A stretch of 64,000 nt of DNA from contig NZ_LROY01000001.1 in NCBI RefSeq assembly GCF_001639145.1, forward strand, positions 436,501-500,500, in the 5' to 3' direction. Below the pieces are notes generated by a model, which ran no database searches, was not told where the DNA came from, and saw nothing but the letters and a program-made list of their open reading frames with translations. This DNA comes from Microbulbifer sp. Q7 (GTDB taxonomy: Bacteria > Pseudomonadota > Gammaproteobacteria > Pseudomonadales > Cellvibrionaceae). Position 1 is the stretch's first letter; the number at the start of each line of letters is the position of its first letter. Shown piece after piece: positions 21,211 to 55,598 of this stretch. The position numbers were made by a program, and so were the translations under genes.

Positions 21211-21322
21211 GGCGAGCCACCGGGTGGAAGGTTTTGAAACCGCTGTAAATACATCCCTGTACGCTGCGTCGGCGACGTCCCTGTCGCCGACGCTTTCAAA
21301 ACCTTCCACCCGGCGCCTCGCC
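21211..21322 (+). repeat. Nested-hairpin repeat, copy A
   Basis: A 112-base element between yidC and mnmE. A base stem GGCGAG/CTCGCC encloses a 22-base outer stem (21218-21239 with 21294-21315, 21 of 22 paired). This encloses the conserved core 21240-21268 with mini-hairpin TACA-TCCC-TGTA, and an 11-base inner stem (21266-21276 with 21283-21293). It shares core and architecture with copies at 50837, 51019 and 55432, while stem sequences differ with compensating changes. The function is unknown to me. Confidence 0.9.
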
Positions 21323-21356
21323 TTCGCACTCACTTCTGTACTTCGATTCGAAACAT

Positions 21357-21382
21357 GGGCCGCAGCAAGCGGCCCTTCTTTT
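21357..21382 (+). terminator. Rho-independent terminator of the rpmH-yidC unit
   Basis: Perfect stem GGGCCGC / GCGGCCC with loop AGCAA, followed by TTCTTTT, 40 bases before mnmE. It lies just after repeat copy A. Confidence 0.8.
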
Positions 21383-21421
21383 ATGTCAACGAAACCCCTG
21401 AAACCCGGATAGACTCAAAAC

Positions 21422-22795
21422 ATGTCCCAGCAAAGCCTCAGCAAAGACACAATTGCCGCCGTCGCCACCCCACCGGGCCGTGGTGGTATCGGCGTGATCC
21501 GTCTATCCGGACCAAGGGCACTTGAGATTGGTGAACAGCTGGCTGGCAAAACCTTCAAACCCCGGTTTGCCCACTACTGCAATTTCACCCACGAGGAACA
21601 GCTGCTCGACCAGGGTCTGGCACTGTTTTTCCCCGGCCCAAACTCCTTCACCGGTGAAGACGTGGTGGAACTACAGGGTCACGGTGGCCCGGTTATCCTC
21701 GACACACTGATGTCCGCACTGCTCGATCTGGGCGCACGCCAGGCGCGGCCGGGCGAGTTTTCCGAGCGCGCCTTTCTCAATGACAAGATGGATTTGGCGC
21801 AAGCGGAGGCCATTGCCGACCTGATCGACGCCGGCAGTGCCCAGGCCGCACAGAATGCCCTGCGATCGCTGCAGGGGGTTTTCTCCGAAAAAATCGAAGA
21901 TTTGGCGACCAAACTGACCCATTTGCGTATCTACGTCGAAGCATCGATCGATTTTCCGGAAGAAGAAATCGATTTTCTTGCCGACGGCAAGGTGGCGGCG
22001 GATGTGGAAGCGCTGCTGGCCCAGCTGGACGTCGTGGAAACCCAGGCACGCCAGGGAACCATCCTGCGCGAGGGTATGCAGGTGGCCATCGCCGGCAAAC
22101 CGAATGCGGGCAAGTCGAGCCTGCTGAATGCACTGGCCGGCAAGGACACCGCGATTGTGACCGACATCGCCGGTACCACCCGGGACGTTCTGCGGGAGCA
22201 CATCCATATCGATGGCATGCCATTGCACGTTGCCGACACCGCCGGCCTGCGGGAATCCCCGGATCAGGTAGAGCAGATCGGCATGCAGCGGGCCTGGGAC
22301 GAAATCCGCCACGCGGACCGGGTGCTGCTGGTGGTCGATGCCGCCGAACTCCAGGATCTGGATCCGGACCGCGCCTGGCCGGACTTCACCCGGCAGCTGC
22401 CCGACCCGGAAAAGCTGACCCTGGTGGTCAACAAGATCGACCTAACCGAATACACCGCCGGGTTGCAGGCACACAGTGATGGGGTTCCGGTGGTCGCCAT
22501 CAGCGCCAAAACAGGCGCCGGCATCAACGATCTGAAGCAGCACCTGAAGCAGTGCATGGGCTACCACGCCGGCAACGAAGGCACCTTCAGCGCCCGACGA
22601 CGCCATCTGGATGCCCTGGCCCGTGCGCGAGCGTTCATCGTGGCGGGGCAGGCGCAGCTGAATGCCAGCGGCGCGGGGGAATTACTGGCGGAAGACCTGC
22701 GTCAGGCGCAGCAGGCGCTGGGGGAAATCACCGGCGCCATGACCGCCGACGAACTGCTGGGCAAAATTTTTGGCAGCTTCTGTATCGGCAAATAA
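21422..22795 (+). CDS. mnmE: tRNA uridine-5-carboxymethylaminomethyl modification GTPase MnmE
   Basis: GTPase that, with MnmG, installs the cmnm5 group at the wobble uridine of certain tRNAs. The 457-residue protein has the folate-binding N-terminal domain ([22 protein letters not shown]), a helical domain, and an inserted G domain: [17 protein letters not shown] (G1) near residue 222, DIAGTTRD (G2), DTAGLRES (G3) and VNKID (G4). It ends with the catalytic C-terminal FGSFCIGK motif, whose cysteine is essential in the family. It is separated from yidC by a terminator, so it probably has its own promoter. Confidence 0.97.
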
Positions 22796-22855
22796 GACTC
22801 CGCTAAAGCGGCATATCGTGCACGGTGGGAAGGGCCACCAACGGTAAAAGCGGTC

Positions 22856-24124
22856 TCAGGCAAAACTGAGGGTCGCGGTTGTGCCCGTGCCCTCCTCACT
22901 GGCCAGCGATATCCGCCAGCCATTTTGTTCACACAGGCGCTTCACAATCGCCAGGCCGACTCCGTACCCGGCGCGCGAATGCTCACCACCGCGCACGTGT
23001 GGCTCGTAGATACTGGCCAGTTTTTCCTCGCTGATGCCACGGCCACTGTCGATCACCTGTACCCGGGTCTCGCCGATCTTCACAGACACTTGGCCGCGAT
23101 CGGTATAGTTCACCGCGTTGCGAATCAAGTTGCCCACCAGGATCGAGACCACGCGCTTGTTCGCGTGTACCGACGGGCAGGTGCCACACTCCAGCTCTAC
23201 AGCAATGCCCTTTTGCTCGGCCAACGACGTAATCCCCTCCAGCTCCCGCGCCGCCAAATCACAGATATCCACCGGTTCTGTCCGCAGGCCGCCATCCTGC
23301 TCGCGGGAGAGCGCCAGGAACGCGTCGATCAACTCCTGCATATCGTGGCAGGCGCGCTGGATGCGATCGACCAGTTTGCTGTCCTGGTCCGAGAGCTCCT
23401 CCTTCGCCGCAAGCAGTTCTGCCGACATGGCAATCACTGTGATCGGTGTGCGCAATTCATGGCTGGCGTCGCGGGTGAAGGCCCGCTCCCGGTCGACAAA
23501 GCGTGCAATCCGGCTGCGGTAATGCTCTATGGCATCCACCAGCATGGCCACCTCGGTATCCAGGCTCGGCGGCAGCAGATCCGTCAGGTCCGACGCGCCC
23601 TTTTCCTCCGGCAGCGTCTTCATGATGCGCGCCAATTCGATGGTCGGGGAGACCGCGCGCCGCGCGCGCAGGTAGCTGAACCACAACACCAGGTACAGCA
23701 GCGACAACACCACCGCCAGCGGAACCAGCCCGTACAGCGAAATCAGGCTCTCAACCCCGGAACGGTTGAAAAACAGAAACATGCGCTGGTCGCCACGGGA
23801 GCTCACATACAGGGAGTTGAAAACATCCGCGTGTACTTCGTGGTAGCCATCCGCAATGCCCGCTTCCATTTGCCAGGGGAACTTCGCCTGGTCGCGGGGA
23901 AACAGGTAGCCGCGGAGATTAAGAGAGTTGGAGAGCTGCACCGAGGGGTCTTCCTCAACCAGCTGCCAGTAATGCGCGGTTTCCCGCTCCAGGGCTTCCT
24001 GCACCAGGAAATGCGACAGCAGCCAGTTGGTCAGCAGGATGCCGAGTATGACGGCAACGCCGATTAACAGCCCCTGCAGCACAAAGGTGCGCAGAATCTT
24101 GTCCTGCAGGCGATTATTGCTCAT
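22856..24124 (-). CDS. Two-component sensor histidine kinase
   Basis: Membrane sensor kinase with transmembrane segments near residues 15-35 and 165-185, a periplasmic domain of about 130 residues between them, and a cytoplasmic kinase core. The H-box is AFTRDASHELRTPITVIAM, with the phosphorylated histidine near residue 238. The N, G1 and G2 boxes are NLIRNAVNYT, VIDSGRGISEE and GYGVGLAIVKRL. The ATG at 24124 (MSNNRLQDK) overlaps the end of the response regulator gene by 11 bases, so the two are co-translated. The stimulus is unknown; the periplasmic domain is not one I recognise. It lies downstream of the regulator, and its stop faces mnmE. Confidence 0.9.
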   Translation of the reverse strand: MSNNRLQDKILRTFVLQGLLIGVAVILGILLTNWLLSHFLVQEALERETAHYWQLVEEDPSVQLSNSLNLRGYLFPRDQAKFPWQMEAGIADGYHEVHADVFNSLYVSSRGDQRMFLFFNRSGVESLISLYGLVPLAVVLSLLYLVLWFSYLRARRAVSPTIELARIMKTLPEEKGASDLTDLLPPSLDTEVAMLVDAIEHYRSRIARFVDRERAFTRDASHELRTPITVIAMSAELLAAKEELSDQDSKLVDRIQRACHDMQELIDAFLALSREQDGGLRTEPVDICDLAARELEGITSLAEQKGIAVELECGTCPSVHANKRVVSILVGNLIRNAVNYTDRGQVSVKIGETRVQVIDSGRGISEEKLASIYEPHVRGGEHSRAGYGVGLAIVKRLCEQNGWRISLASEEGTGTTATLSFA

Positions 24125-24809
24125 CGCACACCACCAGCTGATAACCACTGCCGGGGTGGTTCAGGATCATGCTACGGGAAAAGGGTTTGTCGACCTTCTT
24201 GCGCAGGCTGTACATATGGCTGCGCAGGGTGTCACTGTCTGGCAGGACATCCCCCCAAACCTTGCGCTCCAGCTCCGCGCGGCTCATCACTGCAGGGGAG
24301 CTGCGCATCAGCACTTCGAGCAAGCGCAGCCCGGTGGGAGGCAGCCGGATATCTCGCCCCTCCCGCTGCACCTGCAGGGTGCTCTTGTCGAGCACCAGAT
24401 CTCCCACCACCAGTTTTTCCCGCGTCACTTCAGAGCGGTTGCGACGTAACTGCGCATTCACCCGTGCCGCCAGTTCGCGTATGGCGAACGGTTTGACCAA
24501 ATAATCATCGGCGCCTGCGTTGAGCCCGGCAATTTTCTCATCCAGCGTATCGCGGGCGGTCAACATTATGATGGGTGTGTCGAGTTTGGCCTGCTCGCGG
24601 ATTGCCCGACAAATATCCAGCCCGTCGATACCGGGCAGCGATAGATCCAGCACAATCAGGTCCACCGGCTTGGTGGTTGCCAAGTGCAGACCGGTGACGC
24701 CGTCCGCGGCGTAATCCACCACAAAGCCCCGTCCTTCAAGGTACGACGCGATCATTTCCGCAATATCGCGATGGTCCTCTATGAGCAAAACCGTGCCAGT
24801 TGTGTGCAT
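24114..24809 (-). CDS. OmpR/PhoB-family response regulator
   Basis: DNA-binding response regulator paired with the kinase gene just downstream. The receiver domain shows VLLIEDHRD (acidic pocket), the phosphoacceptor in LIVLDLSLPGIDG near residue 53, the conserved threonine in MLTARDTLDEK and the lysine in YLVKPFAIREL. A winged-helix C-terminal domain (PPTGLRLLEVLMRSSPAVMSRAELERKVWG...SHMYSLRKKVD) follows. The ATG at 24809 gives 231 residues; a GTG one codon earlier is an alternative start. No target promoter can be assigned, although the DUF4397 gene upstream on the same strand is a neighbour separated by a terminator. Confidence 0.93.
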   Translation of the reverse strand: MHTTGTVLLIEDHRDIAEMIASYLEGRGFVVDYAADGVTGLHLATTKPVDLIVLDLSLPGIDGLDICRAIREQAKLDTPIIMLTARDTLDEKIAGLNAGADDYLVKPFAIRELAARVNAQLRRNRSEVTREKLVVGDLVLDKSTLQVQREGRDIRLPPTGLRLLEVLMRSSPAVMSRAELERKVWGDVLPDSDTLRSHMYSLRKKVDKPFSRSMILNHPGSGYQLVVCDEQ

Positions 24810-24840
24810 CACCGCTGCCCCCGCAAGATTGCCAAAAACG

Positions 24841-24866
24841 AAAAAGCGGGCCCATCACAGGCCCGC
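24841..24866 (-). terminator. Rho-independent terminator of the DUF4397 gene
   Basis: Read on the minus strand, stem GCGGGCC / GGCCCGC with a six-base loop is followed by TTTTT. It lies 28 bases beyond the stop of the DUF4397 lipoprotein gene and before the response regulator. Confidence 0.8.
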
Positions 24867-24893
24867 GCGCAATGCTCGAAAATACTACGAAAA

Positions 24894-26378
24894 TTAGTTG
24901 GTGAGTACTACGACACCAAAGTCTGCTACGTCGCCACCCTGCTCGCTGGGGCCGTATGCCAGAACATTGGCAACCACTCCACCGCCGAGCTCGAAGTTCT
25001 CTACGTTGATCGCCGCCATCCCGCCGGCGACCACACGAATATCGTAGGCACCGGGCGCGACGGTCACATACTCCGTGATCTCACCAAACGCGAAGTCATC
25101 CAGCAAAGGTGCACCGGCGAGGCCACCTTCCACATCCATGACGGTAAACTCGCCAGCAGGGGTCACAAACACATCGACCGCACCGGCTGCCGGGGCACCA
25201 TGGATCACTTTGACGGAGGCTTCGGTCGCCACTGAGCGGTTGGCGTCGGCGGTGGCAAGCAGGCCAAAGGCCGGGGAGCCGAGTACACGGCCGGCTGCAA
25301 TTACGGTGTACTCGGTACCCGCTTCGACTGCAATCTCACCCGAGGTAAATACGCTGTCGCCCAACATATCGGTGTCAGGCGCGACATCAAACACGTAGCT
25401 GGCCGCTGGCACACCGGTATAGGCGCTCTCACCGGGGAACTGGTCCAGGTAATTGAAACCGGGGATCAACTCGACGGGATCCATACCCAGTACTTCACTG
25501 GTGGCAAAAACCTCAACATTACCGCTGGCAACACCTGCAGACATGACCGCGGCATTGGCATCCGGCGACAAGTGCAGCACGCGCACGCCCGCATTGGTGT
25601 CGACGTCGATCAATTCAACAGATTCGCCCTGTTCGGTGGTCACCAGTAATTTCACCGGTGATGCTGCGGCCTCTGTACTGTTTTCCGCGGCAATAGCGGT
25701 CACCAGCAGCTTTTGGCCAGCGAAACCGGTGAGATCCACCGTGCCGGAGTCGTACACCACCTCATCTTCAACACCCACCCGAATGCGCACCGGCTCCGCG
25801 GTCACCACGCCGGCATCAATCGACTCGCCGAACTCAAAGGCGAAAGCCGCTGAGAGGCTGGCGAAATCATCTTCCGGCGCACTGAGGTAAACATCCACCC
25901 GCGGCGCATCGGGCGCTGCGTGGGTCACGGTAAGTGCAACCTCGTTATCTGCGGGATCTGTCGCCGATTCAGTGACGACGAGAGGCGCAATCTCTGCAAC
26001 ATTGCCCACAGCGATCACAGTGGGACGAGCGTTCTCTTCTAGACTGAAGCCTGCCACCTCAATCACGCTGAGGTTGCCGCCCGGGGCAATCCCTTCGACG
26101 GCGATGTCGTAACTGCCCGCATCCAGTTCGGCGAAACCGCTGGTCTCGGCGTAGTCCAACCCCTCGATTGCCACGCTGCCGTTGAGCAACACATTTACGG
26201 CAGGCGCATCCGGTGAAGCGTGCACGACCTGGATGAAGCCACTGGCTGCTGGCTCCTCTACTGCCGGCGGGAACTGCAGTACGTTGTCATTGCCGTCATC
26301 CGAGCAACCAGCGATAAATGCCGCCAGTGGAAGTGCCACTGCCAGCTTCGAAACGATCCGTGAATTTGAAGTTTTCAT
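24894..26378 (-). CDS. DUF4397-repeat lipoprotein
   Basis: Predicted cell-envelope lipoprotein of 494 residues. The signal peptide ends with the lipobox LAAFIAGC (cysteine near residue 25). The mature part contains repeated DUF4397-type modules, each opening with a related strand: VVHASPDAPAVNVLLNG, VTHAAPDAPRVDVYLSA, VLHLSPDANAAVM and VIHGAPAAGAVDVFVT. These beta-rich domains occur in secreted and surface proteins of unknown role. The composition is acidic, rich in Ala, Val, Asp and Glu and poor in lysine. The ATG at 26378 has GGAG eight bases upstream. It sits beside the AT-rich region upstream of mnmG. I know no function for it. Confidence 0.85.
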   Translation of the reverse strand: MKTSNSRIVSKLAVALPLAAFIAGCSDDGNDNVLQFPPAVEEPAASGFIQVVHASPDAPAVNVLLNGSVAIEGLDYAETSGFAELDAGSYDIAVEGIAPGGNLSVIEVAGFSLEENARPTVIAVGNVAEIAPLVVTESATDPADNEVALTVTHAAPDAPRVDVYLSAPEDDFASLSAAFAFEFGESIDAGVVTAEPVRIRVGVEDEVVYDSGTVDLTGFAGQKLLVTAIAAENSTEAAASPVKLLVTTEQGESVELIDVDTNAGVRVLHLSPDANAAVMSAGVASGNVEVFATSEVLGMDPVELIPGFNYLDQFPGESAYTGVPAASYVFDVAPDTDMLGDSVFTSGEIAVEAGTEYTVIAAGRVLGSPAFGLLATADANRSVATEASVKVIHGAPAAGAVDVFVTPAGEFTVMDVEGGLAGAPLLDDFAFGEITEYVTVAPGAYDIRVVAGGMAAINVENFELGGGVVANVLAYGPSEQGGDVADFGVVVLTN

Positions 26379-26499
26379 GAGGCTCTCCTGTTGTGTAGTG
26401 CCACGATACTGGCCGGCACCACATCAGAAGCGCGTCAAAAGGGCGTGAAAATTGTGTGAACGCGGGAAGCCCAGGCAACCGCTCCCCAAGCAAAACACA

Positions 26500-26935
26500 G
26501 GAGTTGCTCACAGAAATCCACAAGGTTATCCAGATAGACCCCTCATCCAAGGTCCGCACACAACAAATTATCCCGAAAACACACAGACTTATGCACAGAG
26601 GCCCCGTTCAAGGTGTGGAAATTCCCCAATGTGGACAACGCACGGGGAAAAGGGCCTCAAAAACCGGTACGAAACCGGGGACAAGTGAGGCGTCGGCCGG
26701 AAACAGCCAAAGTTATCCCGTCTGTCCACAGTGCTCTACCGGGGTTGTACCCCCGCAAAAGCAGGGGTTTATAGGGTACTTATCATCAACGTAAGCCATT
26801 GTTTTACAAAAGATTTTTCCAGATATACATAAAAACACCCCCCCTATATAACAACATTAAATACAAACACGTACTTATACGTAAGGTATGTATAACTTTA
26901 TTTATTTAGAAAGAAGAAAGCGGAAAACGAAATTT
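26500..26935. other. DnaA-box-like cluster and AT-rich tract upstream of mnmG; second candidate origin
   Basis: The 690-base gap holds DnaA-box-like 9-mers: TTATCCAGA 26526, TTATCCCGA 26568, TTATGCACA 26589, TGTGGACAA (minus-strand box) 26630, TTATCCCGT 26713 and CTGTCCACA 26722. A strikingly AT-rich tract (about 26800-26935) follows, with runs such as ATACATAAAAACA and TAACTTTATTTATTTA, resembling a DNA-unwinding element. In E. coli oriC lies next to mnmG (gidA), with boxes and an AT-rich region together. Here all boxes deviate from TTATCCACA by at least one base, so they may be low-affinity sites. Confidence 0.6.
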
Positions 26936-26946
26936 CTAAATGCCGC

Positions 26947-26975
26947 TTTTTTGCACAGCTCAAGACCCCTATAAT
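26947..26975 (+). promoter_or_regulatory. Possible mnmG promoter
   Basis: TATAAT at 26970-26975, with TTTTTT at 26947-26952 as a poor -35 at 17-base spacing. It lies about 95 bases before the mnmG start. Confidence 0.35.
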
Positions 26976-27068
26976 GTGCGGCCGAATTTTCCCATGGCCC
27001 GTTGTTTACCTGACTGACTAACCAAGCCAGGCCCGTATCCCGACGAGCTGGCACCAGAGCTGGACCCT

Positions 27069-28958
27069 ATGGATTACCCCACACAGTACGATGTGATCGT
27101 GATTGGCGGCGGACACGCTGGCACCGAGGCGTGCCTGGCGGCGGCGCGCATGGGCAGCCGTACCCTGCTGTTGACCCACAACATCGAAACCCTGGGCCAG
27201 ATGTCCTGTAACCCCGCCATCGGCGGCATCGGCAAGAGCCACCTGGTCAAGGAAGTTGATGCACTGGGGGGCGCGATGGCGACGGCCACGGATCTGGGGG
27301 GCATTCAGTTTCGCGTGCTCAATGCGCGCAAAGGCCCGGCCGTGCGCGCCACCCGCGCCCAGGCGGACCGCGCCCTGTACAAGGCAGCCATCCGCAACAT
27401 CCTGGAAAACCAGCCCAATCTGGATATTTTCCAGCAGGCCGCCGATGACCTGATCGTCGAAAGTGACCGGGTCACTGGCGTTGTCACCAATGCCGGCTTG
27501 CGCTTCCGCGGCAAGACCGTGGTAATTACTGCGGGCACATTCCTTGGTGGTCGCATCCATATCGGCCTCGACAATCACGCCGGCGGCCGCGCCGGGGATC
27601 CGCCTTCGATTGCCCTCGCCGAACGCCTGCGCGCACTCCCGTTTCGCGTGGAGCGCCTGAAAACCGGCACCCCGCCGCGCATCGATGCGCGCTCGGTAGA
27701 CTTTTCCGGGCTGGAAGAGCAGTGGGGCGACCAGCCGCTGCCGGTGATGTCGTATCTGGGGTCCCGCGAGCAGCATCCCCGCCAGGTGTGCTGCTGGATC
27801 ACCCACACCAACGAAAACACCCACGACATCATTCGCGGCGGCCTCGATCGCTCGCCCATGTATTCCGGTGTGATCGAAGGCATTGGCCCGCGTTACTGCC
27901 CGTCTATCGAGGACAAGGTGCACCGCTTCGCGGACAAGAACAGCCACCAGATTTTCGTGGAACCTGAAGGGTTGACCACCAACGAGCTGTACCCCAACGG
28001 CATTTCCACCAGTCTGCCGTTTGACGTGCAGATGAGCCTGGTGCGCTCGATCAAGGGCTTCGAAAACGCGCATATCACTCGCCCCGGCTACGCCATCGAG
28101 TACGACTTCTTCGACCCCCGCGACCTGCTGCCGTCGCTGCAAACTAAATTTATTGCCGGCCTGTTCTTTGCTGGCCAGATCAACGGCACCACGGGCTACG
28201 AAGAGGCCGCCGCGCAGGGATTGCTGGCCGGCGCCAACGCAGCGCTGCAGGCGCAAGACAAAGACGCCTGGGCGCCCCGTCGCGACGAGGCCTACCTGGG
28301 CGTGCTGGTAGACGACCTGATCACCAGCGGCACCAAAGAGCCCTACCGCATGTTCACCAGCCGCGCGGAATACCGCCTGCTGCTGCGGGAAGACAACGCG
28401 GACCTGCGCCTGACCGAGAAAGGCCGGGAGTTGGGGTTGGTGGACGACGTCCGCTGGCAGGCCTTCTGCGAGAAGCGCGAAGCCATCGAGCGCGAACAGC
28501 AGCGCCTGAAAGAAACTTGGGTGCAGCCGGGAAGCGACGCGGCACAACGGGTCGAGCAAAAGCTGCCGCAACCCCTTGCCCGCGAGTACAGCCTGCAGGA
28601 CCTGCTGAAGCGTCCGGAGCTCGCCTACCCGGATGTGGCCGGCCTCGTCGGCGACGCGGTTGCCGATGAGCGGGTGGCGGAACAGGTAGAAATCTCGGCC
28701 AAGTACGCCGGTTATATCGACCGCCAGCGGGACGATATCGAGCGGCTGCTAGCCTACGAGGACACGCCGCTGCCGGTGGACTTTGACTACTCTGCGGTCT
28801 CCGGTCTGTCCAACGAAGTCATCCAGAAATTGAGTGATGCCCGACCAGATACCCTCGCCCGCGCCGGCCGCGTGCCCGGGGTGACCCCCGCCGCGGTATC
28901 CCTGCTGCTGATCCAGCTGAAAAAGCGCGGCCTGTTAAGCCGCAAAAAGGTGGTGTGA
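27069..28958 (+). CDS. mnmG: tRNA uridine-5-carboxymethylaminomethyl modification enzyme MnmG (GidA)
   Basis: FAD-dependent partner of MnmE in wobble-uridine modification. The N-terminus has the Rossmann FAD-binding motif [21 protein letters not shown], followed by the GidA signature [22 protein letters not shown] split over residues 47-68. [13 protein letters not shown] and the second signature region [21 protein letters not shown] near residue 360 are also present, plus the C-terminal helical MnmE-binding region. The 629-residue length is standard. It starts a run of rightward genes (rsmG, parA, parB) conserved in this order around bacterial origins. The ribosome site before ATG 27069 is weak. 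Confidence 0.97.
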
Positions 28959-29608
28959 CGGTGATGGAGCAGTATCGCCCGCGCCTGCAGCAAGCGGCCG
29001 CGCAGATGGGATTGACGCTTGCCGGCGCGCAGCAGGACAAGCTGCTGGCGTACCTGGACCTGTTCGCCCGCTGGAATGCGGCCTACAACCTCTCGGCGGT
29101 ACGCGACCCGTCCGAGATGCTCGAGCGGCATATCATCGACAGCCTGAGCGTGGTGAACCTGTGCGGCACCAGCTCCAGCGACCAGTCGCCCCTGATCGAT
29201 GTGGGCTCCGGTGGTGGCTTGCCGGGGATTCCCCTCGCCATCGTCCACCCCGAGCGCCCGGTGAGCCTGCTCGACAGTAACGGCAAGAAGTCCCGTTTCC
29301 AGTTCCAGGTGGCCAGCCAGCTCAAGCTCGGCAATATCAACGTGGTGAACCAGAGAGTCGAGGCCTATCGACCGGATAGTCTCTACGCCGGTGTGGTATC
29401 CAGAGCGTTTGCCTCGTTGCAGGATATGGTTTCCGGGAGTGAGCATTTACTATCGCCGGGCGGCCGATTTTATGCGATGAAGGGCAAGATTCCGGAAGAT
29501 GAGTTGAGTGCATTGCCAAAAGGGATTAAGGTCGAACAGCTACACACCCTGCAAGTGCCGGGCTGTGATGCCGAGCGCCATCTGATCGTCCTCGCGCGCG
29601 AGGGTTAA
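28955..29608 (+). CDS. rsmG: 16S rRNA (guanine-N7)-methyltransferase RsmG (GidB)
   Basis: SAM-dependent enzyme that methylates N7 of G527 in 16S rRNA. The SAM-binding motif [18 protein letters not shown] lies near residue 68, preceded by the family stretch [29 protein letters not shown] (positions about 30-60). [13 protein letters not shown] is a later conserved block. The start is the GTG at 28955, overlapping the mnmG stop (GTGTGA), or the ATG at 28964 three codons later. I prefer the GTG because AAAGG lies about five bases upstream. It is translationally coupled to mnmG. Confidence 0.95.
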
Positions 29609-29802
29609 GCCCCTCACTGGCAGGGTGGCCTGTCGCGCGCACCATCTGGCGCGACCATTACTGAATTGAAAATTGACACCAGCGCACCGGGCCGATGTTC
29701 GCGAGTGCGCTTTTGCTGCCGCGCCTTCCGGTGAATCCGGCCTAGCGGCGAGCCCGGCAGGCCGCAGGAAAACGTGCCGCCGGGAATAACAGGACCAGAA
29801 CC

Positions 29803-30624: not shown

Positions 30625-30642
30625 TACTGAGGTAGTACACGT

Positions 30643-31551: not shown

Positions 31552-31592
31552 ACCTCCCCCGCTGAAACCGTTACGGTTGCAACGTTTCCGTG

Positions 31593-31633
31593 AAAAGTGC
31601 GCCAAAACAGTGCGGTGTTTTGGCGCACTTTTT
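31593..31633 (+). terminator. Rho-independent terminator after parB
   Basis: Long perfect stem AAAAGTGCGCCAAAACA paired with TGTTTTGGCGCACTTTT around a short loop, followed by further T residues. It separates mnmG-parB from the atp operon. From here to 31820 I see no gene; the atp promoter should lie there but I cannot place it securely. Confidence 0.85.
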
Positions 31634-31820
31634 GTTTCACAGGGTGTCGTTTCACCGATGATTGTGAGTGTTTACTATCACCCTATCGTGTTGTGAAAGA
31701 ACGCGAACACCACGCCAACAGACTAGATTTGCCAGTTGAACCGGCAGCCTGCTTCATACATAATTCGCACGCCCAATTTTTGGGCGGAAAAGTATATTTT
31801 TGGCCGGCCCGTTCCCGCCT

Positions 31821-32325: not shown

Positions 32326-33273
<948 letters not shown>

Positions 33274-44900: not shown

Positions 44901-44920
44901 TGTAGCTGGCTGACTTGGAA

Positions 44921-48247: not shown

Positions 48248-48517
48248 TCAGGGCTCCTGGGTTACTGGAGTGGTCTTGGAAGTCGCGGCCGCCCCGGTAA
48301 GGCACCGCTATTTGAAAAATGACTATCGTGACAAATTACTGGATTCCCGGCAAAACTCAACGCATCTACGCCGAACGGGGGAAAACTCGGGATATCCCGA
48401 GGTGACCGGATTTTTGCCTGTGAAAAGGTGCCCCAGCTTGCGCCCTTCCGCCAAACAGCGTGACTAGACTGGGGTAAGGGGTGCCGCGGGGCGCATCCCA
48501 TCCAGGACAGACCAGCA

Positions 48518-49315
48518 ATGACTCACCACAAGGATCAGGACAGGCCCAAGAGTGATCGCCAGATTCTTTCGGAGCAGATGGACGAAAGCCTGCGGGAATA
48601 CAATCGCAACAACCGTTCGCTGCTGCTCTCGTCGATGGCGGCGGGCATGGAGATTGGCTTCAGCGTGTTCCTGATCGCGGCGTTTTACAGTCATTTCCAT
48701 GCCAGTATCTCTCACCAACTGATGTACCTGCTGGCTGCACTGAGCTATCCCGTCGGCTTTATGCTGGTGATCATCGGCCGTTCGGACCTGTTTACCGAGC
48801 ACACGACGCTGGCGATCCTGCCGGTGCTGGATGGTCGAAAATCCTTTCCACAGTTATTGCGGGTATGGGGCTTTATCTACTCGGGCAACATGCTGGGGGC
48901 CATTGTATTCAGTGCCCTGTTTGTCCAGTTTGTGGATATGACCGACCGATTCGATGCGTCAGTGTTTACTTACTACGGTGAGAAAATGCTCGCTGACGGC
49001 GTTGGTGGACAATTTCTAGGTGCCATTTTCGCCGGCTGGCTGATGGGGCAATTGGCGTGGATGGTGACCTCATCTGCGGAAACCATCAGCCGTATCACCG
49101 TGGTCGCGATCATCACCTTTGTCATCGGTCTTGGTGGCCTGCCGCACTGTATTGCGGGCGCGGTGGGCATGTTCTGCGCCTGGTTTGCCAAAAACACCAC
49201 CGTCGGGCTATTGGATGTACTCCAGTTCCTCGCCATTGCCACCACGGGCAATATCATCGGCGGCTCGATATTCGTCGGGCGGGTAAAATACAGCTCCATC
49301 CGCCATAGCCATTGA
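48518..49315 (+). CDS. Formate/nitrite transporter (FNT) family membrane protein
   Basis: Pentameric-channel family protein of 265 residues with six hydrophobic segments. Family features are MAAGMEIGFSVFLIAAFY, GRSDLFTEHTTLAILPVL (the TM-loop region equivalent to the FNT filter) and GLPHCIAGAVGMF. It resembles the YfdC-like branch, which carries a charged N-terminal extension (residues 1-35, rich in Asp, Arg and Gln), more than FocA or NirC. The substrate is therefore uncertain. It is divergent from the amidohydrolase gene across 270 bases, which must hold both promoters; I could not identify them. Confidence 0.82.
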   Translation: MTHHKDQDRPKSDRQILSEQMDESLREYNRNNRSLLLSSMAAGMEIGFSVFLIAAFYSHFHASISHQLMYLLAALSYPVGFMLVIIGRSDLFTEHTTLAILPVLDGRKSFPQLLRVWGFIYSGNMLGAIVFSALFVQFVDMTDRFDASVFTYYGEKMLADGVGGQFLGAIFAGWLMGQLAWMVTSSAETISRITVVAIITFVIGLGGLPHCIAGAVGMFCAWFAKNTTVGLLDVLQFLAIATTGNIIGGSIFVGRVKYSSIRHSH

Positions 49316-49435
49316 GGGAATTGGGGGCGGGTCGGGACATCATTCCGGGTTGCGGTTACCGTCTCAACTCGTGACAATCCGCTCCGATCAAAAACTAATA
49401 GCACCTAAACCAATAGCACCTCATCAGGGAACCCC

Positions 49436-50797
49436 ATGACCATCGATGTAGTTATCCTCGCCGCCGGTAAAGGCACCCGCATGCGCTCCGACCTGCCCAA
49501 AGTCCTGCACCCTATCGGTGGGGTACCCATGCTGGGGCGAGTCATTGAGGCGGCGAAAGGTCTTGGCGAAGTGGGTATCACTGTGGTGATCGGCCACGGC
49601 GCGGAGCTGGTGCGCGAGCGCTTTGCCGATAGCGGCGTACAGTTTGTGGAGCAGACCGAGCAGCTGGGCACTGGCCACGCGGTGGCACAGGCGATTCCGA
49701 ACTTCCGCGAAGGCGCCACGGTGCTGGTGCTCTACGGCGATGTACCGCTGGTGAAAACCGCCACCCTGCAGAACCTGCTGAACGCATCTGAAACCGGCCC
49801 GGCCCTGTTGTCGGTGGTGATGGAGGATCCGGCGGGTTACGGTCGCATAGTGCGTGACGAGGAGGGACAGGTACAGGCTATCGTCGAGCAGAAAGACGCC
49901 GACGCTGAGACCCTCAAAATCACCGAAATCAACACCGGCATTCTCGCCGCGCCCGCTAACTTGCTGGCCCAGTGGCTGCCGGAACTCTCCAGCGACAACG
50001 CCCAGGGTGAGTACTACCTGACCGATGTGATCGCGCGTTCAGTGCGTGAAAACATCGCCGTTACCGGCGTGATCGCCGACGATCCCAACGAAGTGGCTGG
50101 GGTAAACAGCCGTGCGCAACAGGCGGAACTGGAGCGGGCGCTGCAGGCGGACAACGCCAGTGCGCTGATGGCGGCCGGCGTCACTCTGCTGGACCCGGCG
50201 CGCATTGATGTCCGCGGCTCCCTTAATTGTGGTTCCGACGTCTCCATCGACATCAACTGCATCTTCGAAGGTGACGTCACCCTCGGCGATAACGTGAAAA
50301 TCGGCCCCAACTGCCTGCTGAAAAACTGCCAGCTGGCTGCAGGCACGGTGGTGGAAGCCAACTCGATTATCGAAGACGCTGTGGTGGGCGAAGCCTGTGC
50401 CATCGGTCCTTTTGCGCGCCTGCGTCCGGGCACCGAACTGGCCAATGGCGCCAAGGTGGGCAACTTCGTCGAAACCAAAAAGACCAAAATCGGCCTCGGC
50501 AGCAAGGTGAATCACCTGTCCTATATTGGCGATGCCGAAGTGGGCGAAGGCGTCAATATTGGCGCGGGTACTATCACCTGCAATTACGATGGCGTGAACA
50601 AATCCAAAACCGTGATCGGCGATGGGGCCTTTATTGGTTCCAACTCTGCGCTGGTGGCTCCGGTAGAAATTGGCGCCGGCGCCACCATTGGCGCGGGCTC
50701 CACCATTACTCGCGAAGTAAGTGCTGACGAACTGGCGGTGGCTCGTGGTAAGCAGCGCAATATCAGTGGCTGGCAGCGGCCTCGCAAAAAGTCTTGA
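49436..50797 (+). CDS. glmU: Bifunctional UDP-N-acetylglucosamine pyrophosphorylase / glucosamine-1-phosphate acetyltransferase
   Basis: Makes UDP-GlcNAc for peptidoglycan and lipopolysaccharide from glucosamine-1-phosphate. The N-terminal uridyltransferase domain opens with VVILAAGKGTRMRSDLPKVL (nucleotide-binding loop) and has QLGTGHAV and LYGDVPL. The C-terminal left-handed beta-helix acetyltransferase domain shows hexapeptide repeats (GPFARLRPGTELANGAKVGN, GVNIGAGTITCNYDG and IGAGATIGAGSTIT). The 453-residue length is standard. In Pseudomonas glmU is followed by a DeoR gene and glmS. Here the dehydrogenase operon and two repeat elements lie between. Confidence 0.98.
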   Translation: MTIDVVILAAGKGTRMRSDLPKVLHPIGGVPMLGRVIEAAKGLGEVGITVVIGHGAELVRERFADSGVQFVEQTEQLGTGHAVAQAIPNFREGATVLVLYGDVPLVKTATLQNLLNASETGPALLSVVMEDPAGYGRIVRDEEGQVQAIVEQKDADAETLKITEINTGILAAPANLLAQWLPELSSDNAQGEYYLTDVIARSVRENIAVTGVIADDPNEVAGVNSRAQQAELERALQADNASALMAAGVTLLDPARIDVRGSLNCGSDVSIDINCIFEGDVTLGDNVKIGPNCLLKNCQLAAGTVVEANSIIEDAVVGEACAIGPFARLRPGTELANGAKVGNFVETKKTKIGLGSKVNHLSYIGDAEVGEGVNIGAGTITCNYDGVNKSKTVIGDGAFIGSNSALVAPVEIGAGATIGAGSTITREVSADELAVARGKQRNISGWQRPRKKS

Positions 50798-50836
50798 GTC
50801 CTGTGGTCCTGGGTACTTTGAATTTGGTTGGGTGGC

Positions 50837-50947
50837 GGTGGAGCACCGGGTAAAGGTTTTCAGGACCGCTGTGAACCCATCCCTGGGCGCTGCGGCGCAA
50901 ACATCCTGTTTGCGACGCTCCTGAAAACCTTTACCCGGCACTCCACC
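50837..50947 (+). repeat. Nested-hairpin repeat, copy B
   Basis: A 111-base element 40 bases after glmU. The base stem is GGTGGAG/CTCCACC. The outer stem is 50844-50865 with 50919-50940, 20 of 22 paired. The mini-hairpin is CCCA-TCCC-TGGG, where copies A and C have TACA-TCCC-TGTA. The inner stem is GCGGCGCAAAC with GTTTGCGACGC. All stems differ from copies A and C, with both arms changed together. Confidence 0.9.
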
Positions 50948-51018
50948 TTCAGTCGAACCTAAACCACTTCGTAAAAACTTTCCTGATCCGCTAACAAAGT
51001 CCCAATCTTTAAAGCGAA

Positions 51019-51130
51019 GGTAAAGCGCCGGGTGTGGGGTTTCGGAAGCGTCAGCGACAGGGACGTCGCTGACGCAGCGTACAGGGATGTATTTACAGCG
51101 GTTCCGAAACCCCACACCCGGTGATTTACC
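51019..51130 (-). repeat. Nested-hairpin repeat, copy C
   Basis: A 112-base element in the opposite orientation to copy B, starting 71 bases after it and ending 93 bases before the E1-alpha gene. The base stem is GGTAAA/TTTACC. The outer stem is 51026-51047 with 51102-51123, 21 of 22 paired. The core is almost identical to copy A when read on the minus strand. The inner stem is GCGTCAGCGAC with GTCGCTGACGC, where A has a compensated G-C in place of A-T. Apart from copies B and C the 426-base glmU-E1-alpha gap shows no gene. Confidence 0.9.
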
Positions 51131-51223
51131 GCCACGGAACCAAGATAAAACGAACCCCACAACCCAAAGACCCCCAAAACCCCCAACTACACTAAAAGCA
51201 TCGGAATCCAAGGAACCCAGCCG

Positions 51224-52330
51224 ATGCACAAACCCCGCCTGCAGCTTCAGGCTTCCTTCGATATCGCCTACCTCCAGTATCTGGACAAACAGGGTCAGGC
51301 CACCCAGCCCCTGCCCGACTTCGCCACCCCAGACTGGCTCAGCCACTGCCATCGTCAGATGCAACTGGCCCGGCTGGTGGACGATCGCGCGGTCAAACTG
51401 CAGCGCACCGGCCGCCTCGGCACCTACCCCTCCACCCTCGGCCAGGAAGCCATCGGCGTCGCCGCCGGCAATGCGCTGATGGCCGAAGACGTCTACTGCC
51501 CCTACTACCGCGAAACCGGCGCCCTGTTGGAGCGCGGTGTCGAGATTGAAGAAATCCTCGCTATCTGGGGCGGCGACGAGCGCGGGCAGAATTTTCAGCA
51601 CGCGCCGAACGATCTGCCTATCTGCGTGCCTATCGCCACCCAGATGCTGCACGGCGCCGGCGTTGCCTTTGCATTGAAATATCGCCACCAGCAGAACAAC
51701 CAGCCCCTGCAGGTGGCGGTCGCCAGTTCCGGTGAGGGGGCCACCTCCAAAGGGGATTTCTACGAAGCGATGAACCTGGCCGGGGTGTGGAAGCTGCCGA
51801 TGGTGTTTGTGGTGAACAACAATCAATGGGCCATTTCCGTACCCAGAAACGCCCAGACTGCCACTCAGACCATCGCCCAGAAAGCGATCGCCGCGGGCAT
51901 TCCTGCATTGCAGGTGGATGGCAACGATGTGGTGGCCGTGGCCTGGGCGGTACGCGATGCGATGGAGCGGGCGCGGCGGGGTGAGGGCGCGGCGCTGGTC
52001 GAGGCGATGAGTTACCGCCTGTGCGACCACACCACCGCCGACGATGCGAGTCGCTATCGCAGCGCATCCGAGCTGGAGCAGGCCTGGCAGTGGGAGCCGA
52101 TAAAGCGGCTGGATAACTATCTGCGTGCACAGGGCCTGTGGAGTGACGCGAAGCAGCAGGACCTGGACCGGGAGCTGGCGCAGGTGATGGCGGCGGCGCT
52201 GAACAACTGGGAGTCCCGCGCTCCGGAGCCGGTCACCGCGATGTTCGACCATCTCTATGCGCGGCTGCCGGAGGGGCTCTATGAACAGTACGACCAGTTG
52301 CGCGACGAACAGCAGGGAGTGGCGGAATAG
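51224..52330 (+). CDS. 2-oxoacid (probably pyruvate) dehydrogenase E1 component alpha subunit
   Basis: Thiamine diphosphate-dependent alpha subunit of a heterotetrameric E1, which decarboxylates a 2-oxoacid and transfers the acyl group to lipoate on E2. The TPP-binding motif is present as GEGATSKGDFYEAMNLAG followed by VFVVNNN near residues 172-205; the usual GDG is GEG. GRLGTYPSTLGQEA and YYRETGALLERG are family features. The length is 368 residues. It is followed immediately by E1 beta (start directly after the stop) and E2. The pyruvate versus branched-chain substrate cannot be fixed by sequence reading alone. No E3 gene is present here. Confidence 0.87.
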   Translation: MHKPRLQLQASFDIAYLQYLDKQGQATQPLPDFATPDWLSHCHRQMQLARLVDDRAVKLQRTGRLGTYPSTLGQEAIGVAAGNALMAEDVYCPYYRETGALLERGVEIEEILAIWGGDERGQNFQHAPNDLPICVPIATQMLHGAGVAFALKYRHQQNNQPLQVAVASSGEGATSKGDFYEAMNLAGVWKLPMVFVVNNNQWAISVPRNAQTATQTIAQKAIAAGIPALQVDGNDVVAVAWAVRDAMERARRGEGAALVEAMSYRLCDHTTADDASRYRSASELEQAWQWEPIKRLDNYLRAQGLWSDAKQQDLDRELAQVMAAALNNWESRAPEPVTAMFDHLYARLPEGLYEQYDQLRDEQQGVAE

Positions 52331-53350
52331 ATGGCGGCGCAGGATAACGGCATCACGCTGGTCGAAGCCGTCACCCAGGCACTGGCGTTTGAACTGAAGA
52401 ACGATCCCCAAGTGGTGGTGTTCGGTCAGGATATTGGTGCGAACGGCGGCGTATTCCGGGCAACCGACGGTTTGCAGAAAATTTACGGTGCCGACCGGGT
52501 GCTGGACACGCCACTGGCGGAAACCATGATCGCCGGTATCGCCGTGGGCATGGCCACCCAGGGCTTGAGGCCGGTGGCGGAGTTCCAGTTTATGGGCTTC
52601 ATCTACCCCGGCCTCGACCATATCCTCAGTCACGCCGCGCGCATGCGCAACCGCACCCGCGGTCGACTCAGTTGCCCCATTGTTTACCGCGCGCCGTACG
52701 GCGGTGGCATCCACGCGCCGGAACACCACAGTGAGAGCACCGAGGCGATGTTTGCGCATATCCCCGGTCTGCGGGTAGTAGTGCCCTCGTCCCCGGCCCG
52801 CGCCTACGGCCTGTTGCTGGCGGCGATCCGCGACCCGGATCCGGTACTGTTTCTGGAACCCAAGCGTATCTATCGCGCCGCCAAACAACCGGTGCCGGAT
52901 GATGGCGAAGCCCTGCCACTCGACCGCGCCTTTGTGTTGCGCGAGGGCAGCGATCTGACCCTGGTTGCCTGGGGTGCCAGCGTCAAGGAAACCCTCGCCG
53001 CCGCCGAGCAGTTGTCCCGTGAAGGTATCGAGGCCGATGTCATCGACCCCGCTACCCTCAAACCGCTGGATATCCACACCATCATCGACTCCCTGGAGAA
53101 AACCCGCCGCTGTGTGATCGTGCACGAAGCCGCGCGCTTTGGTGGCCTCGGCGCGGAGATCGCCGCGCAGATCCAGGAATATGCGTTTGATCTACTGGAT
53201 GCGCCAGTGCAGCGGGTGACCGGCTACGACGCGGTGATGCCCTACTACCAGCTGGAAAATGCCTACCTGCCCGGGGTTGAGCGAATCCTCGCCGGGGCGC
53301 GCGCGGCGCTGGATTATGTGCGGCAAAGCGGGCAGGAGGGCGGCCAATGA
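52331..53350 (+). CDS. 2-oxoacid (probably pyruvate) dehydrogenase E1 component beta subunit
   Basis: Beta subunit of the heterotetrameric E1, 339 residues. It begins GITLVEAVTQALAFELKNDPQVVVFGQDIGANGGVFRAT (residues 7-45), the typical E1-beta opening. Conserved segments are VLDTPLAETMIAGIAVGMATQGLRPVAE, APYGGGIHAPEHHSESTEAMF and EPKRIYRA, and the transketolase C-terminal domain contains DLTLVAWGASVKETL. The ATG follows the E1-alpha TAG without a gap, and the TGA overlaps the E2 ATG, so the three subunits are translationally coupled. Confidence 0.92.
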   Translation: MAAQDNGITLVEAVTQALAFELKNDPQVVVFGQDIGANGGVFRATDGLQKIYGADRVLDTPLAETMIAGIAVGMATQGLRPVAEFQFMGFIYPGLDHILSHAARMRNRTRGRLSCPIVYRAPYGGGIHAPEHHSESTEAMFAHIPGLRVVVPSSPARAYGLLLAAIRDPDPVLFLEPKRIYRAAKQPVPDDGEALPLDRAFVLREGSDLTLVAWGASVKETLAAAEQLSREGIEADVIDPATLKPLDIHTIIDSLEKTRRCVIVHEAARFGGLGAEIAAQIQEYAFDLLDAPVQRVTGYDAVMPYYQLENAYLPGVERILAGARAALDYVRQSGQEGGQ

Positions 53351-54561
53351 AAGTCTTCAAACTGCCGGACCTGGGTGAGGGATTGCCGGACGCGGTCATC
53401 CGCCAGTGGCACGTGCAGGAGGGTGACAGCGTCAAAGCCGACCAGACGCTGGTTACCGTGGAGACCGCCAAGGCACTGGTGGAAGTGCCCGCGCCCTTTG
53501 CCGGCACCGTGCAAACCCTGTTCGCCGCCGAGGGTGAGACCCTGGAAACCGGGCAGCCGCTGATCGGGTTCACGGATGCGCAAGCCGATGAAGCGGTGAA
53601 TGAAGACGCGGATGAGGGACCGAAGCCTGCGCATAAGGCGCTCTCTACAGACGCCGCCGGCGACAGTGGCACCGTGGTCGGCAAGATCGAACAGGGCAGT
53701 GAGGCTCTCGCCGTGGAGCAGCGGCCCGTAAGCAGCCGCCCCCGCAGCGCCACTCCCGCCATCCGCGCACTCGCCCGCCGTCTCGGTGTCGACCTCGACA
53801 GCCTGCACCCGTCCGGTGCCCGCTTCAGCGAAGCCGAAGTCCGCGCCGCCGCCCGCGGCGAGAACCTGCCGAGATGGAGCGAAAAATCGAAAATAGGCGA
53901 CGAAAATCGAGAAAAAAAACACGAATCGTCGATAACTGGCCCAGTAGCAAGCGATATGGCCCCCGCGCGCCGGGCCATGACCATCGCCATGAACCGGGCC
54001 CGCGATCAGGTCTGCCCCATGACCCTGTGCGACGAGGTGGATATCTCGGGCTGGCCCAAAGGCACCAGCGCTACCCTGCGTCTGTTGCGAGCCATTGCCC
54101 GCGCCGCGATCGAAGAACCGAACCTTAACGCCCATTTCGACAACGAAGTGCTGGAACCGAAAACCCCGGTGAACGTGGGTTTGGCAGTGGACACCGCCAA
54201 GGGCCTGTTCGTGCCGGTGCTGCGCGACGTGGGCGCCCAGACCGAGACCGCGCTGCTGGACAGCATTACCCGCTTTAAACAACAGGCCAGCGAAGGTGCC
54301 ATCCCCCAGAAAGATCTCCAGGGCGCCACCATTCACCTGTCCAACTTCGGCAGTCTCGCCGGCCGCTTCGCCACCCCGGTGGTTGTCCCGCCACTGGTGT
54401 GCATCGTCGGTGCCGGCCGGGCCCACAAGGCCGTATTGCCGCACAAGGGCAAGGCCCGGGTGCGCAAACTGCTCCCCCTGTCCATCACCGCCGATCACCG
54501 CGCCGTCACCGGTGGCGAACTGGCGCGATTCCTCAAAGCCCTTAAAGAGGACCTCGCCTGA
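53347..54561 (+). CDS. Dihydrolipoamide acyltransferase (E2) component
   Basis: Core acyltransferase of the complex, 404 residues. One N-terminal lipoyl domain has the lipoylated lysine in TVETAKALVEVPAPF near residue 40. A Glu/Ala-rich linker and a peripheral-subunit binding domain (TPAIRALARRLGVDLDSLH near 138) follow, then the catalytic domain (ARRAMTIAMNRARDQV onward). The active-site segment is SITADHRAVTGGELARFL. The histidine is kept, but the usual DHRxxDG aspartate position reads T, a variant I believe occurs in part of the family. A lysine-rich, GC-poor patch at residues 178-197 breaks the otherwise GC-rich linker. It ends 65 bases before the DeoR gene. Confidence 0.88.
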   Translation: MKVFKLPDLGEGLPDAVIRQWHVQEGDSVKADQTLVTVETAKALVEVPAPFAGTVQTLFAAEGETLETGQPLIGFTDAQADEAVNEDADEGPKPAHKALSTDAAGDSGTVVGKIEQGSEALAVEQRPVSSRPRSATPAIRALARRLGVDLDSLHPSGARFSEAEVRAAARGENLPRWSEKSKIGDENREKKHESSITGPVASDMAPARRAMTIAMNRARDQVCPMTLCDEVDISGWPKGTSATLRLLRAIARAAIEEPNLNAHFDNEVLEPKTPVNVGLAVDTAKGLFVPVLRDVGAQTETALLDSITRFKQQASEGAIPQKDLQGATIHLSNFGSLAGRFATPVVVPPLVCIVGAGRAHKAVLPHKGKARVRKLLPLSITADHRAVTGGELARFLKALKEDLA

Positions 54562-54626
54562 TTCATGGGTGTGATCTCGCGTTTCGTTTTGCTATGCTTA
54601 ACTTTCGAATCGAAACTTAACTCACT

Positions 54627-55388
54627 ATGTCGAAACGTAACACCCAGCAGCGCCGTCACCAGATACTCAGCCAGATCAACGAAGCCGGTGAAGCCAGCGT
54701 CGAAGAACTGGCGCGGCAGTTCGAAACCTCCGAAGTTACGATCCGAAAGGATCTGGCGGCAATGGAAAACAACGGCCTGCTGCTGCGCCGCCACGGTGGC
54801 GCCATCCCCCTGCCCCGGGAACTGGTCGCCGAAGACCCCCTGTCCCAGACCAAGCGCGCCATCGGCCGCGCCGCCGCCGAACTCATTCGCGACCACAACC
54901 GCATCGTCATCGACTACGGCCGCACCACCACCGGCCTCATCCCCGAGCTCAACCGCAAGCGCGGCCTCGTGGTCATGACCAACTCCCTGCACGTCGCCAA
55001 CCAGCTGCGGGAACTGGAAAACGAACCCACCCTGCTCATGACCGGAGGCACTTGGGACCCCCACTTCGAAGCCTTCCAGGGCCAGGTCGCCGAACAGGTG
55101 TTACGCGGCTACGACTTCGACCAGGCGTTTATCGGCGCTGATGGCATCGACCTCGAGCGCGGCACATGCACCTTCAATGAACAGATCGGTTTGTCCCGCG
55201 TGATGGCCGACGTGGCCCGCGAAGTGGTGGTAATGGCGGAATCCAGCAAGGTTGGGCGACGAATTCCGAATCTGGAACTGAGCTGGGAAATGTTCGGCAC
55301 GCTGGTGACCGATAGCGGTATCGACGACAAGGTTTGTGCGCAACTGGAAAGCCGTGGGCTTCGCGTCATCTGCGCAGAAGTGAATTAA
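54627..55388 (+). CDS. DeoR-family transcriptional regulator (GlmR-like position)
   Basis: DNA-binding repressor-type protein of 253 residues. The N-terminal winged helix-turn-helix (SVEELARQFETSEVTIRKDLAAME then GLLLRRHGGA) is the DeoR signature. The C-terminal sugar-phosphate sensor domain shows IDYGRTTTGLIPEL and a late AFIGADGIDLERGTCTFNEQ. In Pseudomonas a DeoR gene sits between glmU and glmS, so this is likely its counterpart and may control glmS in response to an amino-sugar phosphate; this is inferred from position. Repeat copy D lies between it and glmS. Confidence 0.9.
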   Translation: MSKRNTQQRRHQILSQINEAGEASVEELARQFETSEVTIRKDLAAMENNGLLLRRHGGAIPLPRELVAEDPLSQTKRAIGRAAAELIRDHNRIVIDYGRTTTGLIPELNRKRGLVVMTNSLHVANQLRELENEPTLLMTGGTWDPHFEAFQGQVAEQVLRGYDFDQAFIGADGIDLERGTCTFNEQIGLSRVMADVAREVVVMAESSKVGRRIPNLELSWEMFGTLVTDSGIDDKVCAQLESRGLRVICAEVN

Positions 55389-55431
55389 AGCTAAAACGGA
55401 TTGCAACAAACACTCTGAAATTTGACGAGAA

Positions 55432-55598
55432 GGTGGCGATACCGGGTAAACCTTTGTGAGACCGTCTGCGGCCAGGACGGCCGCAGCCGAGCCCCCAGGG
55501 CAGATTTTTGCTCCTGCAAAATCTGCATTTCCGCCATCCATGGCGGTCAGATGGTGGTTTACGGCGTGTCTCACAAAGGTTTATCCGGTAGCGTCACC
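55432..55598 (-). repeat. Nested-hairpin repeat, copy D (expanded) in the glmS leader
   Basis: A 167-base variant ending 50 bases before the glmS ATG. The base stem is GGTGGCG/CGTCACC (one mismatch). The outer stem is 55441-55462 with 55568-55589, 21 of 22 paired. Read on the minus strand the core again begins CGCCGTAAACCACCATC and the inner hairpin is GCTGCGGCC-GTCCT-GGCCGCAG. In place of the short mini-hairpin there are two extra hairpins, GCAGATTTTTGC/GCAAAATCTGC and CCGCCAT/ATGGCGG. Apart from this element the 259-base gap holds only the glmS ribosome site (GAGG). Confidence 0.85.

Follow-up and report, generated by a model that had tools for sequence, protein, structure and literature searches.

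Intergenic nested-hairpin repeats of Microbulbifer sp. Q7 belong to a gammaproteobacterial superfamily related to Yersinia YPAL/RU-2 and keep the fold of one strand

Introduction

What keeps the two arms of an intergenic hairpin matched when almost every base of the stem has changed between copies? The question is raised by a stretch of 64,000 nucleotides from Microbulbifer sp. Q7 (RefSeq assembly GCF_001639145.1, contig NZ_LROY01000001.1, positions 436,501 to 500,500), hereafter the window, for which a first-pass annotation had described four copies (A–D) of an element with a base stem, an outer stem, a conserved core, a mini-hairpin and an inner stem, the arms of which change together. All four places hold the hairpins described, and in length they rank above every other inverted repeat among the 16 pairs listed for the window (arms at most 160 nt apart). 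It is reported here that A–D belong to a real and large superfamily of elements across Gammaproteobacteria, related to a known repeat of Yersinia, and that one particular strand of the element is the one whose fold is kept, whatever the direction of the neighbouring genes. Strand-specific folding, replacement of copies at preserved sites, loops resembling the CsrA motif and a composite form of the element are the new facts.

The strand as first written is called the UCC strand and its complement the GGA strand. G000 denotes the genome that holds the window, G035 a sister genome with flanks 92–98% identical, other G numbers further genomes and L numbers loci.

Architecture and covariation of the arms

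From outside to inside, the element comprises GTGGCGG/CCTTCG feet, a base stem, an outer stem, the motif CGCTGTRAA, a mini-hairpin, GCT and an inner hairpin, with a CA/CA mismatch between base stem and outer stem in many copies; the unit, GTGGCGG...CCTTCG, measures about 122 bp here. A covariance model, R1, was built from 13 sequences (86 positions, 31 pairs). The joint change of the arms is more than an accident of four copies: in A9, which aligns 52 distinct copies found outside the genus and was built to fit the structure of the model and is therefore biased towards it, 94.3% of the cells at the 31 pairs are able to pair, compared with 55.5% after shuffling and 33.8–46.3% in slid controls, cells changed on both sides number 574 (151 when shuffled), and both-side change occurs at 30 of the 31 pairs. 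Of five measures, only the number of further pair types failed to exceed the shuffles (85, with 89.5 when shuffled). Only 9 cells were changed on one side, indicating that one-sided intermediate states are rare. Correction of one arm by the other was rejected as the sole cause of matching, as near-identical copies in G000 and G035 were found by eye to carry one-arm changes, so that the arms are not equalised at once.

Some cores are variants with a (A/G)CTAGGCG(T/C)CCCCCC-like stretch in place of part of the ACGCCGTGAA side; these were observed at several sites and in several genomes (L107:2446-2531, L116:2390-2466, L177, L202, L205 and L206).

The strand that folds

Where a stem is kept as nucleic acid, its working strand is expected to accept G·U (G·T) pairs but not A·C mismatches. 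Read in the UCC frame, the outer stem contains 56 A·C and 23 G·T, and positions 7–12 of the base stem 82 and 18, respectively; the 129 A·C and 6 G·T at base-stem positions 5–6 correspond to a tandem U·G/G·U on the GGA strand. This excess of A·C on the UCC strand identifies the GGA strand as the one that folds. The mini-hairpin runs the opposite way (17 G·T, 0 A·C), which is ascribed to a first loop base G facing a fixed T, and the inner stem is level (6 G·T, 8 A·C). When a set of 260 full copies, all unique (38 of them belonging to other genera, 7 poorly paired ones excluded, and many of the non-G000 sites drawn from best-scoring lists), was sorted by the orientation of the flanking genes, the A·C:G·T ratio was 67:7 in UCC-sense, 46:11 in GGA-sense, 41:8 in convergent, 8:1 in divergent and 25:4 in unclear contexts. 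The asymmetry thus holds in every gene orientation, so that it is not the mRNA of neighbouring genes that maintains the fold. Outside the genus, two sets that share some loci gave 53:18 and 56:16. Predicted stabilities favour the same strand, with RNA energies in 240/258 copies of the main set and 92/98 of a distant set and with DNA energies in 236/258 and 70/98, respectively; random windows showed no mean difference between strands. The earlier proposal that a folded single-stranded nucleic acid is what matters is thus supported, and can be narrowed to the GGA strand.

Copy number, distribution and genomic context

In G000, 110 matches to R1, including A–C, were obtained at E≤1 with 150 of 1809 candidates scored. 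They form 91 units, 19 doublets and 72 singles, of which, according to our own codon-scored open reading frame (ORF) calls, 73 lie between co-directional genes, 9 between convergent and 4 between divergent genes, 3 inside ORF calls and 2 at locus ends, with a median of 57 nt between the model match and a neighbouring 3′ gene end. Doublets are mostly inverted in the '+-' arrangement (37/42 overall; 18/20 in G000). Homologies within one genome mostly extend over 95–149 bp, the longest over 159 bp (45 of 253 pairs printed), and often span about −20 to +102 relative to the start of the core. A covariance search of the genome and its relatives, as the first-pass annotation had suggested, thus yields many further copies: a first set of relatives gave matches in 15 of 19 genomes (0–138 each), and a search across the class (369 genomes from 272 genera, E≤1e-6, 12 candidates scored per genome) gave matches in 65 genomes and 58 genera, both counts of positive genomes including that of the window. 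An exact 20-nt core was found in 31 stretches from named genomes, which include those of Microbulbifer, Morganella, Zobellella, Marinobacter and Saccharospirillum. Outside the genus there may be an orientation bias: co-directional singles among best-hit and pattern loci (49 copies) were UCC-sense in 19 cases and GGA-sense in 4, but in multi-copy genomes (52 copies) the split was 14 to 11.

A longer, composite form of the element occurs in another family, in genome G324, where at six loci two elements, one GGA-oriented and the other UCC-oriented, are separated by about 235 nt and enclosed by long inverted ends (delimited by eye); the end sequence of the composite has 33 matches in that genome.

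Relation to known repeats and RNAs

No named family had been recognised at first pass. The core is, however, that of YPAL/RU-2, the Yersinia palindromic repeat, of which a 168-nt sequence is printed in PMC2759123, and it is also contained in the consensus of the Rfam model Ysr224 (RF02770). In a six-sequence alignment, YPAL/RU-2 has the same GGA-strand order (inner CANGGANG hairpin, AGC, mini-hairpin CANGGATG, TT-AC, GCG), the invariant core columns are common to the elements and to the printed YPAL/RU-2 sequence, and the GGA strand of the latter likewise folds better than its complement (−68.1 versus −59.4 kcal/mol). Both repeats are intergenic and multi-copy, with empty and filled sites in close relatives, as has been reported for YPAL. 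They differ in unit length (about 168 bp for YPAL versus about 122 bp here, with homology up to 159 bp), and in the longer near-perfect outer stem and far wider host range of the elements described here. They may also differ in target-site duplication, reported as 3–26 bp for YPAL and here not above shuffled expectation in 69 singles, although these copies are old.

Ysr224, reported in several copies in Y. ruckeri, gave 12 sub-threshold matches in G000 (best 34.6 bits) and 38.3 bits in Morganella; no tested copy reached its gathering score of 70, and its model strand is the UCC strand. Nothing in the window attains an Rfam gathering score, and sub-threshold Rfam scores carry little weight alone, since copy B gives E-values as low as 0.0007 with miRNA models that are unrelated. 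What is already catalogued is thus a relative, YPAL/Ysr224, and not the present copies. No relevant paper on the core sequence was found, the single hit being an unrelated one on cancer, and none of the papers listed on palindromes in Microbulbifer (12 of 604) dealt with the element.

Among other known systems, REP/BIME repeats with RAYT share the intergenic palindromes, inverted pairs and high copy number, whereas the present elements have a two-headed core, are several times the length of a REP (given as 20–40 bp) and show no RAYT link. The decoy RNAs CsrB and RsmZ share ANGGAN hairpin loops on one strand, whereas the elements are dispersed over many loci, have a long closing stem and match RsmZ weakly, below threshold. 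Unlike intrinsic terminators, A–D have no T run after the hairpin, as had been noted and as reading by eye confirmed.

Hairpin loops

The loops, first described as TCC(C)T-like, are more exactly C-NTCCNT-G on the written strand, so that on the GGA strand both hairpins present C-ANGGAN-G hexaloops. A script looking for TCC detected it in 258/260 mini-hairpins and 253/260 inner hairpins. Because R1 was seeded with TCC-loop copies and the 31 exact-core stretches fix the mini-hairpin, the loop conservation is partly built in; its independent part consists of YPAL and the positions of the inner loop. The T that ends the loop on the UCC strand is present in 257/258 mini-hairpins and 188/188 inner hexaloops (49/49 and 41/42 outside the genus) and is kept even where the first loop base is not A (33 mini-hairpins, 92 inner hexaloops). 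The fixed loop positions are conserved and the two N positions vary most, the GGA triplets lie 20 or 21 nt apart in 273/294, and 65 inner loops are pentaloops. These features resemble the published CsrA/RsmE motif: RsmE binds hairpins with an ANGGAN loop, the CsrA consensus from systematic evolution of ligands by exponential enrichment (SELEX) is RUACARGGAUGU, the SELEX hairpins mostly have ≤4 base pairs, and two sites are bridged at spacings of ≥10 to ≤63 nt, best at >18 (PMC7652899). A CsrA/RsmA-type protein acting on RNA may be regarded as the leading specific candidate for recognition of the loops.

Persistence and turnover of sites

Comparison of close relatives shows that sites persist while their content is often another version, and both empty and filled states, the comparison proposed at first pass, were seen. 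At the yidC-mnmE site, occupied in the window by copy A and followed in 30 genomes of the genus, G000, G027 and G001 contain full copies, the two arms of which differ in step between genomes, G022 contains a variant copy, G002 and G033 retain the outer stems but not the core, and G031 and G032 retain partial copies, with none seen in the remaining genomes. Among 30 loci compared for the glmU doublet (B/C in the window), both halves are matched in G000, G035, G031, G027, G001, G033, G023 and G034, and one half in G026, G022 and G005. Placement of 38 G000 copies in G035 gave, by script, 11 orthologous copies, 21 different versions and 6 empty or remnant sites and, after the sequences had been read, partly by eye, 11, 19 and 8, respectively; on reading, L045:1699 was called orthologous with a local core variant, copy B of the window was a different version, and L095:2637 and L104:2587 had no counterpart. 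At some G000/G035 sites only the core or only the outer stem is exchanged (L043:1501, L100:4224), and G003 and G010 hold copies in opposite orientations at one shared site.

A different family of long hairpins, with a core like GGCAAATATTTAACGATCAGTTTTTTTGCC, was seen by eye after glmU in L184 (G012), L187 (G028) and L186 (G030), as an inverted pair in G012 and G028, at the place where G000 has the B/C doublet.

Mode of propagation and alternative explanations

The explanation preferred here, at a probability of roughly 55%, is that the elements form a superfamily of small intergenic repeats, dispersed and non-autonomous, which includes YPAL/RU-2 and spreads by way of the folded GGA strand. 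New copies would arise through this strand as single-stranded DNA or RNA, with a copying machinery presumably encoded elsewhere; only foldable copies would propagate, which would keep the arms matched and let incoming copies overwrite resident ones. Several results weigh against this proposal. No transposase or other partner was found: the Y1 transposase family Y1_Tnp (PF01797) is missing in 11/62 element-positive genomes, including the copy-rich G275, and present in 10/18 negative ones, the Y1_Tnp gene of G000 has no element or palindrome beside it, and in the G324 composites no transposase was recognised by eye in the ORFs at 14 loci of the 33 repeat hits, no family search having been run. 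Searches of phages and plasmids gave no match to copy A, and no replication-strand bias was seen around an origin placed by eye (22+/26− and 7+/11−, contig C1 only). Nor was a very recent jump caught, the best same-genome pair among 165 copies of five genomes being 95.0% identical over 159 bp, and of 256 distinct elements none recurs unchanged between different flanks. Target-site duplication does not exceed the shuffles (longest shared flank word in the 69 singles, mean 5.72 versus 5.79), the copies being old, and homologous import from other strains could likewise account for replacement at a site. In REP stems, G·T pairing has moreover been taken as a sign of transcription (PMC3733652), by which RNA would be favoured as the folding form.

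A resident autonomous parent in G324 was rejected, as the ORFs at 14 of the 33 loci looked ordinary by eye, no family search having been run. RAYT was likewise rejected as a partner, its presence tracking neither copy number nor elements and no flanking elements being found where looked for; the flanks of Y1 genes were read in seven genomes with the element model and in five with a repeat finder. A Y1_Tnp-like ORF of 317 aa lies at L310:2247-3200 (G000:C1:804 kb), with no inverted repeats listed beside it, and similar Y1_Tnp matches occur in most genus genomes searched.

The elements could instead be CsrA/RsmA-binding RNA modules, transcripts of the GGA strand offering two ANGGAN hexaloops suited to one CsrA dimer and the dozens of copies acting as a dispersed decoy array or as CsrA sites in 3′ untranslated regions. 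This is considered possible, though clearly less probable than propagation of a non-autonomous repeat. The loop pattern with its freest N positions and the 20–21 nt spacing agree with the published RsmE loop, SELEX consensus and bridging distances, the mini-hairpin of copy C reads GUACAGGGAUGU on the GGA strand, and the strand preference is more even with RNA than with DNA energies; the closing stems are nevertheless strong compared with those of the SELEX hairpins, and 65 inner loops deviate as pentaloops. A sub-threshold PrrB/RsmZ match to a Morganella copy read on its GGA strand (L026:5179-5330, minus, 21.2 bits, E 0.0044) is weak, unrelated miRNA models giving better E-values on copy B. 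The csrA family was found in 58/62 element-positive genomes (of 64 positives other than G000) and not in the other 4, but also in 17/18 negative ones, and its presence does not discriminate. Furthermore, UCC-sense copies hold the mismatch asymmetry equally well (67:7), co-directional singles are only 57 GGA-sense against 44 UCC-sense (31 against 28 in G000), best-hit loci outside the genus even favour the UCC sense (19 to 4), and no conserved promoter was seen by eye in the flank profile. A combination of both, in which a repeat propagated as a single strand overwrites residents at fixed sites and its heads are genuine CsrA/RsmA dimer sites, some 100 modules being seeded per genome, is judged improbable.

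The position of the units, with 73/91 between co-directional genes and the short median distance to a 3′ gene end, would fit stable hairpins past stop codons by which transcripts are protected or ended, a role that has been proposed for YPAL. Such a role predicts G·T over A·C in UCC-sense copies, where 67 A·C against 7 G·T were observed, and at yidC-mnmE, the one site read closely, another hairpin that resembles a terminator (GGGCCGC/GCGGCCC, followed by T-rich sequence in many genomes) was seen by eye downstream in 29/30 genomes, filled or empty; mRNA 3′ ends are hence an unlikely account. Slightly less likely still are REP/BIME-like elements mobilised by RAYT on one folded strand of single-stranded DNA. 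Strand-specific folding, inverted doublets, intergenic location and the lack of target-site duplication above the shuffles are as would be expected, but two inverted REPs are described as always flanking RAYT genes (PMC2817692), whereas the Y1 gene of G000 has no flanking repeats and the copy-rich G275 has no PF01797 match.

Features of the window

Coordinates are collected in Table 1, together with z scores by which all four copies fold far more stably than shuffled sequence. Copy D is not an equal of the other three: its hairpin is present, yet it is diverged, and R1 finds no match to it because about 59 nt interrupt its mini-hairpin. By eye, this insert itself carries two hairpins whose loops show TCC when the plus strand is read, and a similar insert in the opposite relative orientation is present at L129:1985-2124. 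The G035 counterpart of D, next to a start of glmS that is 98% identical to that of G000, lacks the insert and matches the model (L201 1352-1436, 67.5 bits). Upstream of the yidC ORF, an inverted repeat with a DnaA-box-like TTATCCACA lies at 18188-18219; this was taken by eye to be the likely origin.

Table 1. Elements and adjoining ORFs in the window, with matches to model R1 and folding-energy z scores against dinucleotide shuffles
Feature	Position	Strand	Model match	z	Remarks
ORF upstream of A	19527..21185	+			ORF list; taken to be yidC
Copy A, type A	21211..21322	+	21224-21309, 102.1 bits	−9.81	UCC strand as written; GGA strand is minus
Copy A outer arms	21224-21239 / 21294-21309				running on into base stem
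Copy A core	21240-21293
Copy A mini-hairpin	21250-21261
Copy A inner hairpin	21266-21293
ORF downstream of A	21422..22795	+			ORF list; taken to be mnmE
ORF upstream of B/C doublet	49436..50797	+			ORF list; taken to be glmU
Copy B, type B	50837..50947	+	50850-50934, 86.6 bits	−9.45	CCCATCCCTGGG mini-hairpin, inner pentaloop; left half of convergent doublet with C
Copy C, type A	51019..51130	-	51032-51117, 103.2 bits	−10.58	right half of B/C doublet
Copy D, type C	55432..55598	-	none in window	−7.43	diverged and interrupted
Insert in copy D mini-hairpin	~55498..55556				~59 nt; limits approximate, by eye
ORF downstream of D	55648..57477	+			ORF list; taken to be glmS

Significance

The Yersinia repeats YPAL and Ysr224 are joined here to a repeat superfamily present in 58 of the 272 sampled genera of the class. 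The mismatch asymmetry provides a test of the folding strand that needs only sequence, and the matched change of the arms becomes a testable question on strand-specific copying. Replacement of one version by another at a preserved site, between genomes with flanks 92–98% identical, represents an unusual kind of genome turnover. A mobile element would be dispersing the binding sites of a global regulator if the CsrA-like heads prove genuine.

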